A stretch of DNA of 64,000 nt from Acidobacteriota bacterium. GTDB lineage: Bacteria > Acidobacteriota > Thermoanaerobaculia > Multivoradales > Multivoraceae. Position 1 is the stretch's first letter; each line of letters opens with the position of its first letter. The translations under genes and the position numbers were made by a program. Location of the stretch: assembly GCA_028877275.1 (NCBI GenBank), contig JAPPFP010000006.1, positions 310,001 through 374,000 on the forward strand. The letters run 5' to 3'. The notes under the pieces are model-generated. The model was not told the DNA's origin. It was given only the letters and a program-made list of their open reading frames with translations, and ran no database searches. Below, one piece after another: positions 960-50,335 of the stretch.

Positions 960-2054
960 ATGGAAGTCGCCAGCGCTGACGCCCAGGCCCAGGCCAGGGA
1001 ACGACTCGATGCCCACGTCCGGGACATGATGGCGTGGCACTTCAGCCCGGACACCGGAACGCCGTTCTGGCTGGACTTCGCGTCGAAGCTCGACTTCGAC
1101 CCGCGCAGCGATGTCGCCTGCTACGCGGACCTGCGCAAGTTCCCGCCGTTCGAGGACGAGTGGCTGCGCGGCGGTCCGGTGCGGCGCTGGGTGCCGAAGG
1201 CGATGGCCGACGACCCGATCTACGTCTTCGAGACCGGCGGCACGACCGGCATCCCGAAGAGTCGGGTGGCGCTCAACGACTTCCGTACGGACTACGAGCT
1301 GTTCAGCGCCAGCCTGCCGGACGAACACTTCCCGCCGGGCAGCAACTGGCTGATGCTGGGGCCGTCGGGCCCGCGCCGCCTGCGTCTGGCGGTGGAGCAC
1401 CTCTGCCAGTACCGCGGCGGCATCTGCTTCTGCGTCGACCTCGACCCGCGCTGGGTGATCAAGCTGATCAAGAAGGGCTGGATGGAGCACCTGGAAGCGT
1501 ACAAGGACCACGTGATCGACCAGGCGCTGGCGGTGCTGTCGGCCGGTCACGACATCCAGGCGATGTTCGCGACGCCAAAGCTGCTCGAGTCTCTCTGCCT
1601 GGCGCTCGAGGACCGCGGTCAGACACTCGCCGACACCGGCATCAAGGGCATCTTCTCGGGCGGCACGGAGTTCACGCCGCAATGGACCCGCTTCGCGGTC
1701 GAGGAGCTGCTCGACGGCGTCTATATGACGCCCACCTATGGCAACACCCTGATGGGCCTGGCCGCGTCGCGGCCGGTCACGCCGGCGGACGGCTACACGA
1801 TCGCCTACTACGCGCCGCAGCCGCGGGCCGTGCTCGAGGTCGTCGACCCGGACGATCCGGACCAGGTCGTCGACTACGGCGCCACCGGCCGCGTGCGGCT
1901 CACGACGTTGACCCGCGAGTTCTTCGTGCCCGGCTTCCTCGAGCGCGACGAGGGCGAGCGGGAGCAGCCCTACGTCGACTACCCCTGGGACGGCGTCAGC
2001 GGCGTGCGGCCGTTCGCGCGGTTGGCCTCGGCGACGACGGTCGGGGTGTACTAG
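960..2054 (+). CDS. Adenylate-forming enzyme (phenylacetate-CoA ligase-like)
   Basis: A 364-residue protein with the phosphate-binding loop of the ANL superfamily (acyl-CoA synthetases, luciferases), ETGGTTGIPKS at residues 91-101. A later segment, GIKGIFSGGTEFTPQW, fits the A5 region of PaaK-like ligases, and PTYGNTLMG fits the adenine-binding region. These enzymes activate a carboxylate with ATP as an acyl-adenylate and often transfer it to CoA. It is shorter than typical PaaK proteins (about 430 residues), and the C-terminal lid domain with its catalytic lysine looks reduced, so it may only adenylate or may act on an unusual substrate. The start is ATG, with no strong ribosome site visible. 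Confidence 0.75.
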   Translation: MEVASADAQAQARERLDAHVRDMMAWHFSPDTGTPFWLDFASKLDFDPRSDVACYADLRKFPPFEDEWLRGGPVRRWVPKAMADDPIYVFETGGTTGIPKSRVALNDFRTDYELFSASLPDEHFPPGSNWLMLGPSGPRRLRLAVEHLCQYRGGICFCVDLDPRWVIKLIKKGWMEHLEAYKDHVIDQALAVLSAGHDIQAMFATPKLLESLCLALEDRGQTLADTGIKGIFSGGTEFTPQWTRFAVEELLDGVYMTPTYGNTLMGLAASRPVTPADGYTIAYYAPQPRAVLEVVDPDDPDQVVDYGATGRVRLTTLTREFFVPGFLERDEGEREQPYVDYPWDGVSGVRPFARLASATTVGVY

Positions 2055-2064
2055 GAGCCTGTCG

Positions 2065-2673
2065 CTAGGGCGCGGCCCGGTTTCGGTAGAGCGCCGGGTC
2101 CACTACTTCGGCCATCGCTTGTTCGTCCAGGCCGTCCACGAGACTGGCGACTTGCGTGGCCGCAGCCGCGGGGTCGCGCAGCGCCTCGCCGTAGTCGATC
2201 TCGATCCACTCGAACTGCGGCGCGTGCCGGAGGAGGTAGTTCACCCGCCAGAGCTGGTCCTGCCACAGTTCCATCATCCGAGCGTCCGGCGTGTCGTCCG
2301 TCTCGTTGCGCCGGTTGAGCATCTTGCGCTGCGATGCAAGGACCTCGGTGAGGTCGCGCCGCATCAGGATGACCCTGTAGTTCAGGTTCGGCGGCAGGTC
2401 CTTGAGCAGGAAGGAGATGACTTTGACCGCGCGGCCGCGTGACGCGCGGAGCCAGGACTTGTCCGGAGCGTTCGCCAGATCCTTGACCCGCTCATCCTCG
2501 TAGTAGCCGCGCGGGTTGTCCTCGTCGGCTTCCCGCTCGCCGTCGGTCACGATCTCCATGCCCCCGGCCTCGAGCATTTTCATCGCCATGGAGGTGCCGG
2601 AGCGAGGCAGGCCCGAGACGACGACGATGGGCCGGCCGTAGCGGAGTCGTCTCCAGAGTGTTCTGGCGCTCAT
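2065..2673 (-). CDS. Sulfotransferase-family P-loop protein
   Basis: A 202-residue protein on the minus strand, convergent with the adenylate-forming gene and separated from it by ten bases. Near the N-terminus VVVSGLPRSGTSM (residues 17-29) is the 5'-phosphosulfate-binding loop of the sulfotransferase superfamily, which moves sulfate from PAPS to an acceptor. A downstream segment, YRVILMRRDLTEVLASQ, corresponds to the 3'-phosphate-binding region, where arginine and serine contact PAPS. The protein is short, near the minimum for the fold, and no substrate can be inferred. It could equally be a kinase-like nucleotide-binding relative. Confidence 0.7.
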   Translation of the reverse strand: MSARTLWRRLRYGRPIVVVSGLPRSGTSMAMKMLEAGGMEIVTDGEREADEDNPRGYYEDERVKDLANAPDKSWLRASRGRAVKVISFLLKDLPPNLNYRVILMRRDLTEVLASQRKMLNRRNETDDTPDARMMELWQDQLWRVNYLLRHAPQFEWIEIDYGEALRDPAAAATQVASLVDGLDEQAMAEVVDPALYRNRAAP

Positions 2674-43037: not shown

Positions 43038-43499
43038 TCAGTCCTCCCTGCCTGGGGCGTTGTGTCGAGTTTCCGGATCGCCGGCCGGCGCCGGCTGGAA
43101 GCGCAGGGCAACGCCGTTGTTGCAGTAACGCAGGCCGGTAGGCGCCGGCCCGTCGCTGAAGACGTGGCCCTGGTGTCCGCCGCAGCGGGAGCAGTGGTAC
43201 TCGGTTCGGGGAACGATCAGCTTGAAGTCCCGCTTCGTGTCGACGGCCCCTGCGATGGGCTCGAAGAAGCTTGGCCAGCCGGTGCCGCTGTCGAACTTCG
43301 CATCCGACCGGAAGAGCTCGGCGCCGCAGCCGGCGCAGAGGAAGACGCCGCTCCGGCGCTCATGGTTGAGCGCCGAGGTGAAGGGGCGTTCGGTTGCCTC
43401 CCGCCGCAGAACCCGGAACTCGTCGCTGCCAAGTCTTGCTCTCCATTCGGATTCGGGGAGGTCGACCCGGCTGCTCGCTCGGCGATCCTCGGTCGTCAT
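43038..43499 (-). CDS. msrB: Peptide methionine (R)-S-oxide reductase MsrB
   Basis: A 153-residue repair enzyme for oxidised methionine. It carries the two structural zinc pairs, CAGCGAELF and CSRCGGHQGH, and the catalytic cysteine in RYCNNGVALRF near the C-terminus; cysteine, not selenocysteine, is encoded here. SGTGWPSFFEP is typical. It is divergent from the selenoprotein gene, leaving 27 bases between starts, and precedes the esterase gene by four bases. Confidence 0.92.
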   Translation of the reverse strand: MTTEDRRASSRVDLPESEWRARLGSDEFRVLRREATERPFTSALNHERRSGVFLCAGCGAELFRSDAKFDSGTGWPSFFEPIAGAVDTKRDFKLIVPRTEYHCSRCGGHQGHVFSDGPAPTGLRYCNNGVALRFQPAPAGDPETRHNAPGRED

Positions 43500-43526: not shown

Positions 43527-44432
43527 ATGGATGGCATGACGACACGACGACCGCCGGTGGATCACATCGTGCGCACGCGCGACCTCTACTCGAGCCTGGG
43601 CCACGATCCCTATCGATGGGTTCGCAATGACGATGCGCCGCCGTGGACCGAGCTGGCGAAGCCCCTGCGCGAGTGTCGAGTGGGGCTGGTGGGCTCCGGT
43701 GGCGTGTACCGGACGGGTCAGGTCGCCTTCCACCATCGGGACGACATCTCGCTGCGTGTGATCGACACGTCGGTTCCCGTCCCGGAACTGCGGACGAGCC
43801 ACTTCGCTTACGACCAGACCGACGCCCGCACCGACCCGAACGTCGTCTTCCCACTCGACGCGCTGCACGCCCTGGTGGCCGAGGGCGTCATCGGCGAACT
43901 GTCGGCGCGCGCCTACGCCTTCATGGGAGGGATCTACTCGGCCCGCCGCGTTCGGGACGTACTGGCGCCGGAGATCAGCCGCCGTCTGGCGGAGGACCAG
44001 GTCGATCTGGCGCTGCTGGTCCCCGTGTGACCGGTCTGCCATCAGTCCGTGGGGCTGATAGCGCGCCGGGTCGAGGCGGACGGGATTCCGACCACGTCGC
44101 TGACCTCGGCTCTCTCGATCACGCGCTCGGTCAATCCTCCGCGTGCCGTCTTCCTCGACTATCCCCTCGGCCACACGGCGGGGAAGGCGAAGGACCCGGC
44201 GCTGCAGCGGGAGATCGTTGCCGCCGCGCTCGCGGCCGTGGACGAACTGGATCAGCCGGGCGCCGTGAAGATGCTGCCGTACCGCTGGTCGCGCGATGAC
44301 GACTGGAAGCGCGAGACGATGCTGAACGGCGACACGCGGAGCCATCGGTCGAGCAGTCCGGAGTACCAGTGCGAGGCCGACCGGGCGCTTGCGGTCGCGG
44401 CGGGGGACTGTCCGACCTGCGTCTTTCTGTGA
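43527..44432 (+). CDS. Selenoprotein of the glycine/betaine/D-proline reductase component B family, in-frame UGA
   Basis: Reading through TGA at 44028-44030 as selenocysteine gives a 301-residue protein with Sec at residue 168. The frame on both sides is the same and the flanks form a single conserved block: LALLVPV, then Sec, then PVCHQSVGLIARRVEADG, a U-x-x-C redox motif. The N-terminal half has RECRVGLVGSGGVYRTGQV and the C-terminal half RAVFLDYPLGHTAGKAKDP, as in the GrdB/PrdB-like family, whose members reduce or sense small substrates with thiols. A second CxxC (CPTC) lies at the end. A stem-loop sits 10 bases after the TGA. Without recoding, the product would end just before its active site. 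No selenium-insertion genes lie in the window. Confidence 0.8.
44041..44059 (+). promoter_or_regulatory. Bacterial SECIS-like hairpin after in-frame TGA
   Basis: ATCAGTCC (44041-44048) pairs with GGGCTGAT (44052-44059), one pair being T:G, around a GTG loop. It begins 10 bases after the TGA at 44028-44030, and the apical GU lies about 19 bases after it. That matches the position and loop type of bacterial SECIS elements, where SelB recognises a GU in the apical loop of a hairpin within the coding region. Confidence 0.7.
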
Positions 44433-45029: not shown

Positions 45030-45085
45030 TCTCGGGTCGGTTCCTCCCCAGGTTGGCGGGGCGTCTGGCTGTTAGCGTATCGCCA

Positions 45086-45937
45086 ATGGCGCCCCTTGAG
45101 CGACTCGACGACTGGGACGACTTCGTCGCTGAGCTCTATCCGACGCCGGCGGAATCGGGCGGCAAACGGCGGGAGGACTACCGGGACTTCGAGGCGCCGC
45201 CCCGCGACACGGTGCGCGAGTTCTACCGGCTGAACCACCGCCACCAGACCTGGGACTTCGTTCAGGACAAGAAGGCGGAGTACCTCACGCTCGACCGGGC
45301 TGAACTCCCGGTCTGGGAGGCGCTCGAGTTCCTGAACACTCTGGTGGACGACTCGGACCCGGATCTGGACCTCTCCCAGCTCGACCACCTGCTGCAGACG
45401 GCCGAGGCGATCCGGGCCGACGGTCATCCGGACTGGTTCGTGCTGGCCGGACTGGTACACGACCTGGGCAAGGTGCTTTGCCTGTGGGGCGAGCCGCAGT
45501 GGGCCGTGGTCGGCGACACCTTCCCGGTCGGCTGCGCGTTCTCGGACCGGATCGTCTACCCGGAGCTGTTCGAGGACAATCCGGACACGGCGAATCCGAC
45601 CTACTCGACACCTCTTGGGGTGTACGAACCGGGTTGCGGCCTGGACCGGGTTCACCTGTCCTGGGGGCACGACGAGTACCTCTACCAGGTGCTCAGCGAC
45701 TACCTGCCGGAACCGGCCCTCTACATGATCCGCTACCACTCCTTCTACGCGTGTCACCGCGAAGGCGCGTACCGGGAGTTGATGAACGACCGTGACCGCG
45801 AGATGTTCGCCTGGGTACGGCGCTTCAACGGCTACGACCTGTACTCGAAGAGTGATCGTCCGCCGGACGCGGCGGAGTTGAGGCCGTACTACCAGGGCCT
45901 GATCGACCGCTACCTGCCGGCGAAGCTGAACCTGTAG
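45086..45937 (+). CDS. myo-Inositol oxygenase (bacterial MIOX)
   Basis: A 283-residue non-haem di-iron oxygenase, almost the length of the human enzyme (285). It converts myo-inositol and O2 to D-glucuronate. All six iron ligands can be placed: His in RADGHPDWF, the His-Asp pair in LVHDLGKVL, His in [10 protein letters not shown], His in RYHSFYACH, and Asp in FNGYDLYSK. The N-terminal [21 protein letters not shown] and LLQTAEAIR are also diagnostic. MIOX is well known in eukaryotes and sparse in bacteria. A CUT2-type sugar importer lies 3.4 kb downstream. ATG 45086 has no clear ribosome site. Confidence 0.9.
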
Positions 45938-49263: not shown

Positions 49264-49360
49264 CGGCGTGACTCTATCCAAGCCCCTTCGCGCTGCGTGT
49301 CACAATCCGGCGTTCAGGTGCCAGGATGTCGAGGGAGGTTGTAGCTATGGGGAACGGATC

Positions 49361-50335
49361 GTGAAGCGGATGCTGACGTGGATGCTCGTGGCAATGTCCT
49401 TTGCCGCGCTTGGCGCCTGCGGCGGTGGCACGGACGGGGGCGACGGCAGCGGCAGCGTCGCCCGGGGCACGATCGGCTTCTCGGCGATGACGCTCAAGAA
49501 CCCCTTCTTCAAGATCATCGCGGACAGTCTGACCGCCGAGGCGGAGCGCCACGGCTTCGAGGTCGTGGTCACCGATGCCGAGCGCGACGTGAACCGGCAG
49601 TCGCAGCAGGTCGATAACTTCCTGGCTTCCGGCGTTGCCGCGATCGTGCTCAACCCGGTGGACCGGATCGCCATCGGACCCGCGGTGCGGCGGGCGAACG
49701 AAGCCGGGGTGCCGGTGTTCACGTCCGACCTCCAGGCCGTCGCCGAGGGTGTCGAGATCGCCGGTCACGTCGGCACCGACAACTACCAGGGCGGGCTGCT
49801 CGCCGGCGAAGCGATGATCGAGGCGCTCGGAGAGGCCGGCGGCGAGGTGCTCGTGCTGCACTTCAAGCAAGCCAACTCCTGCGTCCTGCGCGTGGACGGC
49901 TTCCGTCACGCGATCGGCGAGTACAACCGCGATCGGGCCGGGGGCCGGATCGAGATCGTGGCTGAACTCGAGGGCGGCGGCCTGCGCGACGAGGGTTACC
50001 GGGCGATGGCGGACGGCATCCAGGCCTATCCGGACCTCGCCGGCGTGTTCGCGATCAACGATCCCTCGGCGCTGGGCGCGCGCACCGCGCTCGAGCAGGC
50101 GGGACGCGCGGACCAGGTCAGGATCGTCGGCTTCGACGGTGAGATCGCGGGCCGGCAGGCGATCCGGGAAGGGAAGATCTATGCCGATCCGATCCAGTAC
50201 CCGGATCGGATGGGGGTCATGACGGTGCAGAACATCGTGAGCTACCTCGACGGCGAGGACTTCGAGCGCGTCCACCTGATCCCGACGGAGCTCTACCGGC
50301 AGGCCGACGCCGAGCAGGATCCGACACTCGACTAG
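49361..50335 (+). CDS. CUT2-type sugar-binding lipoprotein of ABC importer
   Basis: A 324-residue lipoprotein (MLVAMSFAALGACGG, lipobox cysteine near residue 20) of the RbsB/periplasmic-binding-protein-like I type. GTIGFSAMTLKNPFFKIIAD opens the first domain, GVAAIVLNPVDRIAIGPAV follows, and GVFAINDPSALGARTALEQ with VRIVGFDGEIAGRQAI closes the second. It should bind a monosaccharide or polyol and deliver it to the transporter encoded next. The start is GTG at 49361. Ribose, inositol and other sugars use this class; substrate not determinable from sequence alone. Confidence 0.85.
   Translation: MKRMLTWMLVAMSFAALGACGGGTDGGDGSGSVARGTIGFSAMTLKNPFFKIIADSLTAEAERHGFEVVVTDAERDVNRQSQQVDNFLASGVAAIVLNPVDRIAIGPAVRRANEAGVPVFTSDLQAVAEGVEIAGHVGTDNYQGGLLAGEAMIEALGEAGGEVLVLHFKQANSCVLRVDGFRHAIGEYNRDRAGGRIEIVAELEGGGLRDEGYRAMADGIQAYPDLAGVFAINDPSALGARTALEQAGRADQVRIVGFDGEIAGRQAIREGKIYADPIQYPDRMGVMTVQNIVSYLDGEDFERVHLIPTELYRQADAEQDPTLD

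Follow-up and report, generated by a model that had tools for sequence, protein, structure and literature searches.

A predicted selenoprotein of the PrdB/GrdB superfamily with a C-terminal CxxC tail, very probably not a proline reductase

Within a stretch of 64,000 nucleotides from an Acidobacteriota genome (hereafter the window), a 301-codon reading frame is interrupted by an in-frame TGA. This raises the question of whether the codon is read as selenocysteine (Sec) and, if it is, what kind of enzyme the complete protein would be. With the TGA taken as Sec, the frame runs from 43527 to 44429 and closes on a terminal TGA at 44430-44432; the TGA at 44028-44030 is its only internal stop and places the motif U168-P-V-C171 in the middle of the protein (Table 1). 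The sequence, coordinates, in-frame TGA and UxxC site of the 301-residue frame re-read exactly as an earlier interpretation made from the sequence only (the sequence-only reading) had given them. Under translation table 11 the frame stops at 44030 and a separate 127-aa frame follows from 44049, so that an ordinary gene caller would split the gene, in agreement with the truncation which that reading had anticipated. Translation may instead start at the second ATG, 43536 (298 amino acids), the point from which relatives are conserved. The window spans positions 310001-374000 of contig 17 in a host genome of 4.32 Mb that is 97.8% complete, and the nearest named records in the homologue scan are metagenome-assembled genomes (MAGs) of Holophagales/Thermoanaerobaculia (Acidobacteriota), including 'Candidatus Multivorans thiocomprendens'.

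Table 1. Positions of the selenoprotein gene, its elements and neighbouring genes in the window.
Feature	Position	Strand	Evidence or remark
PrdB/GrdB-like selenoprotein gene (predicted)	43527..44432	+	TGA168 read as Sec, 301 codons in all; conserved over its full length in 64 loci
In-frame TGA, read as Sec168, motif PV-U-PVCHQ	44028..44030	+	56 TGA and 8 Cys among 64 homologous loci
Cys171 codon, UxxC partner of Sec168	44037..44039	+	alignment column invariant
SECIS-like hairpin	44041..44059	+	8-bp stem, conserved and covarying in Sec genes, upper half broken in Cys genes
C-terminal CPTC motif, Cys295 and Cys298	44409..44420	+	protein end GDCPTCVFL
MsrB (methionine-R-sulfoxide reductase), divergent, 27-36 bp from the start	43038..43499	-	PF01641, 152 bits; local synteny
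Myo-inositol oxygenase (MIOX)	45053-45937	+	PF05153, 372 bits
Periplasmic sugar-binding protein, further down	49352-50332		PF13407

One scan of GTDB genomes yielded 64 homologous loci from several phyla. At the position aligned to residue 168, 56 of them carry TGA and eight a cysteine codon (TGC or TGT), and regardless of the codon the surrounding context P-x-[U/C]-P-x-C-H-Q is present in every locus. For the eleven closest relatives, which are 92-95% identical, dN/dS lies at 0.08-0.14 before the TGA and 0.03-0.14 after it; for relatives at 78-79% identity, the corresponding values are 0.15-0.20 and 0.21-0.28. These low ratios 3' of the TGA indicate that the second half of the gene is under selection at the protein level. 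The alternation of TGA and Cys codons and the dN/dS on both sides, together with the hairpin and the presence of selA, selB, selD and tRNA-Sec in the same genome (both described below), make it almost certain, as judged from sequence, that the gene encodes a selenoprotein and that UGA 44028 is recoded. The sequence-only reading had proposed this recoding, and the comparison of homologues bears it out: they run through the position with Sec or Cys aligned to residue 168, and selection continues past it. The chance that the TGA is instead a real stop, marking a truncated gene or pseudogene, or that UGA is reassigned throughout the organism, appears negligible. Table 11 does close the frame at 44030, but the homologues continue through this point with TGA or Cys, selection persists 3' of it, the complete hairpin is confined to Sec genes, and the gene's own terminator is a TGA in a genome with a complete Sec machinery.

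Downstream of the TGA we recovered the 8-bp hairpin with a GU-containing loop that the sequence-only reading had described. Ten bases separate the TGA from its first base, its strands occupy 44041-44048 and 44052-44059, and the loop, GUG at 44049-44051, begins 19 nt after the TGA. From the TGA onward, 43 nt fold at -24.4 kcal/mol (z -3.4), and none of 200 shuffles was as stable, an outcome in line with that description. For comparison across genes we defined the stem as nucleotides 13-20 and 24-31, counting the U of UGA as 0. In the Sec genes the hairpin keeps a fixed distance from the TGA. Pairing in the stem holds in 90% of cells among 40 Sec genes of the clade that carries a C-terminal CxxC (the tail clade, see below) and in 91% among 38 other Sec genes; in 17 Cys genes the value is 68%, and the three upper pairs drop to 29-47%. 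When the pairing partner was slid by 1-3 nt as a control, pairing in the Sec sets did not rise above 53%. In the wider Sec set the stem pairs well beyond what synonymous recoding gives (z 8.9), with changes on both sides at pair 14-30 (CG/TA/GC) and pair 18-26 (AT/TA/GC). Tail-clade genes taken alone lie weakly above the synonymous null (z 2.3), since the peptide HQSVGLIA hardly varies among them. Of 78 Sec genes, 77 have an apical loop of the form GU[G/C/U]. Gene by gene, the minimum-energy fold is only modestly above its own synonymous null; the evidence for the hairpin thus resides in the gene set and not in single-gene folds. With SelB-dependent bacterial SECIS elements the hairpin shares a stem-loop soon after the UGA, a G in a short apical loop and a distance of about 19 nt from the UGA; the likeness is one of sequence and folding, and no Rfam family matches around the hairpin.

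The sequence-only reading had also held that the host must possess selA, selB, selC and selD, and all were found in the genome that contains the window: selA with 442 bits, selB with 328 bits for its N-terminal part and 361 with its neighbour in frame, selD with 254 bits, and tRNA-Sec with 73.5 bits and the anticodon UCA in the alignment. A second RF01852 match above the cut-off (C6) was rejected as tRNA-Sec, the general tRNA model scoring better there. We surveyed selB in 47 genomes in which the window gene has a homologue. It scores above the cut-off in all 39 that carry a TGA-type gene and is missing at this cut-off from two (G040 and G047), both of which carry the Cys form (L059 and L066); the remaining six genomes with a Cys form possess selB. 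The SelD of the window genome (L083, 1393-3642, minus strand) lies in a 749-aa frame with an apparent FAD/NADH-dehydrogenase-like part N-terminal to a Cys-type SelD (MYCGGCAAK), an architecture that, judged by eye, resembles known Ndh-SelD fusions.

To which family does the protein belong? The assignment to the GrdB/PrdB family in the sequence-only reading stands at the level of the superfamily: PF07355 (GRDB) aligns to residues 45-165 with 43.3 bits against a cut-off of 22 and so passes its gathering score. It does not extend to either known enzyme. TIGR04483 (PrdB), the best NCBIfam model, aligns over nearly its whole length to residues 37-255 (E 4e-49), but its 167.2 bits do not reach the equivalog cut-off of 300, and TIGR01918 scores 63.2 bits against a curated cut-off of 65.45. 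The literature gives UxxC as the motif of PrdB and UxxCxxC as that of GrdB (PMC13188914). The window protein reads UPVCHQS and lacks the GrdB motif. Selenoprotein B of the GrdB/GrdF/GrdH type (PF07355, TIGR01918) shares with it the C-terminal third of PF07355 and the region of the Sec site, but has about 430 residues, a UxxCxxC site and, at locus L086, an adjoining PF09338 gene, none of which applies to the window protein.

We take PF09338 to represent the partner subunits that bear the pyruvoyl group (PrdA-type). It was not found in the window genome (97.8% complete), and it is missing from 44 of the 47 genomes with a homologue; its detection in the other three, at E 1e-96 or better, serves as a positive control for the search. 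That such a protein stands alone, which the sequence-only reading had called unusual, is therefore the rule. In one of these three genomes, the gene right after a PF09338 gene at L086 is a GrdB-like frame with U-GTCTRC (UxxCxxC); this genome also holds a homologue of the window gene (L036) on another contig, so that the GrdB/PF09338 system and the window-type system are distinct. MIOX requires O2, and its gene near the window gene suggests an aerobic host, a better fit than Stickland fermentation. If the protein were a genuine D-proline reductase PrdB, or a glycine, sarcosine or betaine reductase GrdB, serving the Stickland-type reduction of amino acids, this would account for the PF07355 match, for PrdB as the best NCBIfam model and for the UxxC that PrdB also has (PMC13188914). 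Yet this explanation is very doubtful in view of the two missed cut-offs, the lack of UxxCxxC and of a PF09338 partner, the additional CxxC tail, and the O2-using neighbour. With D-proline reductase PrdB (TIGR04483) the window protein has in common the homology over residues 37-255 and the Sec in UxxC, but it scores far below the equivalog cut-off, has no PrdA-type partner and is longer by its CxxC tail. Calling this gene 'proline reductase' is very probably a misnomer, given the missing partner enzyme and the further pair of cysteines in the tail; on present sequence comparisons, the GrdB/PrdB label fits its superfamily and not its function.

The cysteine pair at the C-terminus sets a large group of homologues apart. 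Of the 56 Sec loci, 53 encode a CxxC among the last 45 residues (the exceptions are L046, L048 and L050); none of the eight Cys loci does. On a tree of 96 proteins, computed with the Sec residue masked, the tail carriers group into a single clade with a support of 98, in which 41 of 45 rows have the tail and whose record names span Acidobacteriota, Binatota, Pseudomonadota, Actinomycetota, Myxococcota and Chloroflexota. Its only Cys member, L041 from a Desulfobacteraceae MAG, has no tail. Many Sec proteins of the superfamily outside this clade have no tail; its presence is thus no requirement for Sec. Among independent Sec/Cys contrasts on the tree about one quarter also differ in the tail, four contrasts being too few for a test. 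It may be the function of the clade, rather than Sec, that the tail goes with. An AlphaFold model of the window protein has a mean pLDDT of 93.9 and a pTM of 0.93, tail included. A sequence search of the PDB with the window protein gave no match, and Foldseek of the model against the PDB returned nothing below E 0.001 (best 1.1e-3, TM 0.29), so that no function follows from the fold.

We propose that the gene encodes a Sec oxidoreductase of a PF09338-independent clade, distinct from proline and glycine reductase, whose UxxC site is re-reduced by the CxxC of the tail; we assign this statement as a whole a probability of roughly 0.55. The recoding, the motif, the hairpin, the machinery, the missing partner and the conserved tail are results of the computation, and the relay, the electron donor and the reaction class are what we infer. 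SelB with Sec-tRNA(Sec) would decode UGA 44028, aided by the downstream hairpin, and yield a PrdB/GrdB-like oxidoreductase of 298-301 residues. Enzymes of this clade would act without a pyruvoyl subunit (PF09338) and bring their own C-terminal CxxC. The selenolate of Sec168 may attack and reduce a small electrophilic or oxidised substrate, and Cys171 would resolve the intermediate as a selenenylsulfide. The dithiol of Cys295 and Cys298 would then re-reduce the selenenylsulfide with electrons from a thioredoxin-type donor.

The gene neighbourhood bears on what the substrate might be. All 18 loci from Acidobacteriota (L003-L019 and L035) have msrB as a neighbour, and no other locus does. Downstream lie a small protein without a Pfam match, MIOX, a DcuC-type carrier and an ABC ATPase; these genes and msrB are conserved among close relatives and essentially nowhere else. 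Clustering of the neighbourhoods of the 64 loci found no partner gene common to all phyla. SDR genes adjoin many Binatia-like and Acidimicrobiia loci, and a CoA-transferase adjoins Cys forms. Genes of these two kinds beside many homologues point to carbon catabolism rather than stress defence, and GrdB-like proteins are discussed for fluoroacetate dehalorespiration in Synergistota in the accessible part of PMC10838667. Both would suit a PrdB-like selenol reductase acting on an electrophilic C-X compound (such as an organohalide or an alpha-substituted acid) and not on a disulfide, with the tail dithiol still serving as electron inlet. We consider such a substrate possible but rather unlikely, as the neighbourhoods are not conserved across phyla and neither a CoA-transferase nor an SDR gene adjoins the window gene. 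An enzyme of methionine-sulfoxide or oxidative-stress metabolism that works with the divergent msrB is less likely still: the two genes lie close together in all 18 close relatives, but the pairing is missing outside them although the selenoprotein is widespread. The sequence-only reading had remarked on the msrB neighbour; PF01641 supports its identity as MsrB, and the adjacency is kept only among the closest relatives.

Proteins like the proposed Sec oxidoreductase have been counted before. UxxC selenoproteins named 'proline reductase PrdB' amount to 42 genes in the Sargasso Sea metagenome (PMC1088965) and to 235 Sec and 110 Cys forms in the GOS metagenome (PMC2398784); later surveys counted such proteins as proline reductase (PMC9402790, PMC13188914), which makes up 6.4% of selenoprotein genes in one of them (PMC9402790). 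Few selenoprotein annotations are more frequent in marine metagenomes. The Sargasso Sea and GOS proteins share with the window protein the UxxC, the relation to PF07355 and the existence of Sec and Cys versions, and the window gene would be filed with them. The accessible parts of these two accounts describe neither a C-terminal CxxC nor a missing PF09338 partner, which sets the window gene apart by description, not by sequence. UxxC 'PrdB' selenoproteins are therefore already known, and we found the CxxC-tailed variant of about 300 residues nowhere described as a clade in the literature searched, which covered few subscription journals. Given that 44 of 47 genomes lack the pyruvoyl subunit, the tail clade is very probably not a proline reductase in the known sense, and UxxC with a tail CxxC offers a concrete alternative. 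More tentatively, the clade might represent a separate, partner-independent class of selenoenzyme, a single-chain selenol reductase whose built-in dithiol inlet replaces the pyruvoyl-dependent chemistry of GrdB and PrdB; it would extend over several phyla, mostly as MAGs, and much metagenomic 'proline reductase' might be the same enzyme.

Further UGA-containing genes of this kind came to light in the scan. The window genome holds a second PrdB-like UGA gene (G000:C3:39944; locus L001, G000:C3:38444-41797, positions 1402-2634, plus strand, 411 aa), with an in-frame TGA in CPV-U-PNCSRAVG and its own 8-bp hairpin with a GUG loop; it has no CxxC tail and carries a long C-terminal extension. In a single genome of the same phylum (G266), a PrdB-like frame near base 1926 of L112 contains two TGA codons three codons apart, giving U-x-x-U (PA-U-PI-U-HQSVAL), and the minimum fold at this site differs from the usual hairpin; this is either a real double Sec or a sequencing error. 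Five other loci of this phylum (L127, L134, L144, L154 and L157) read GG-U-Px-VCHRTVV, that is U-x-x-x-C, with one residue more than in UxxC.
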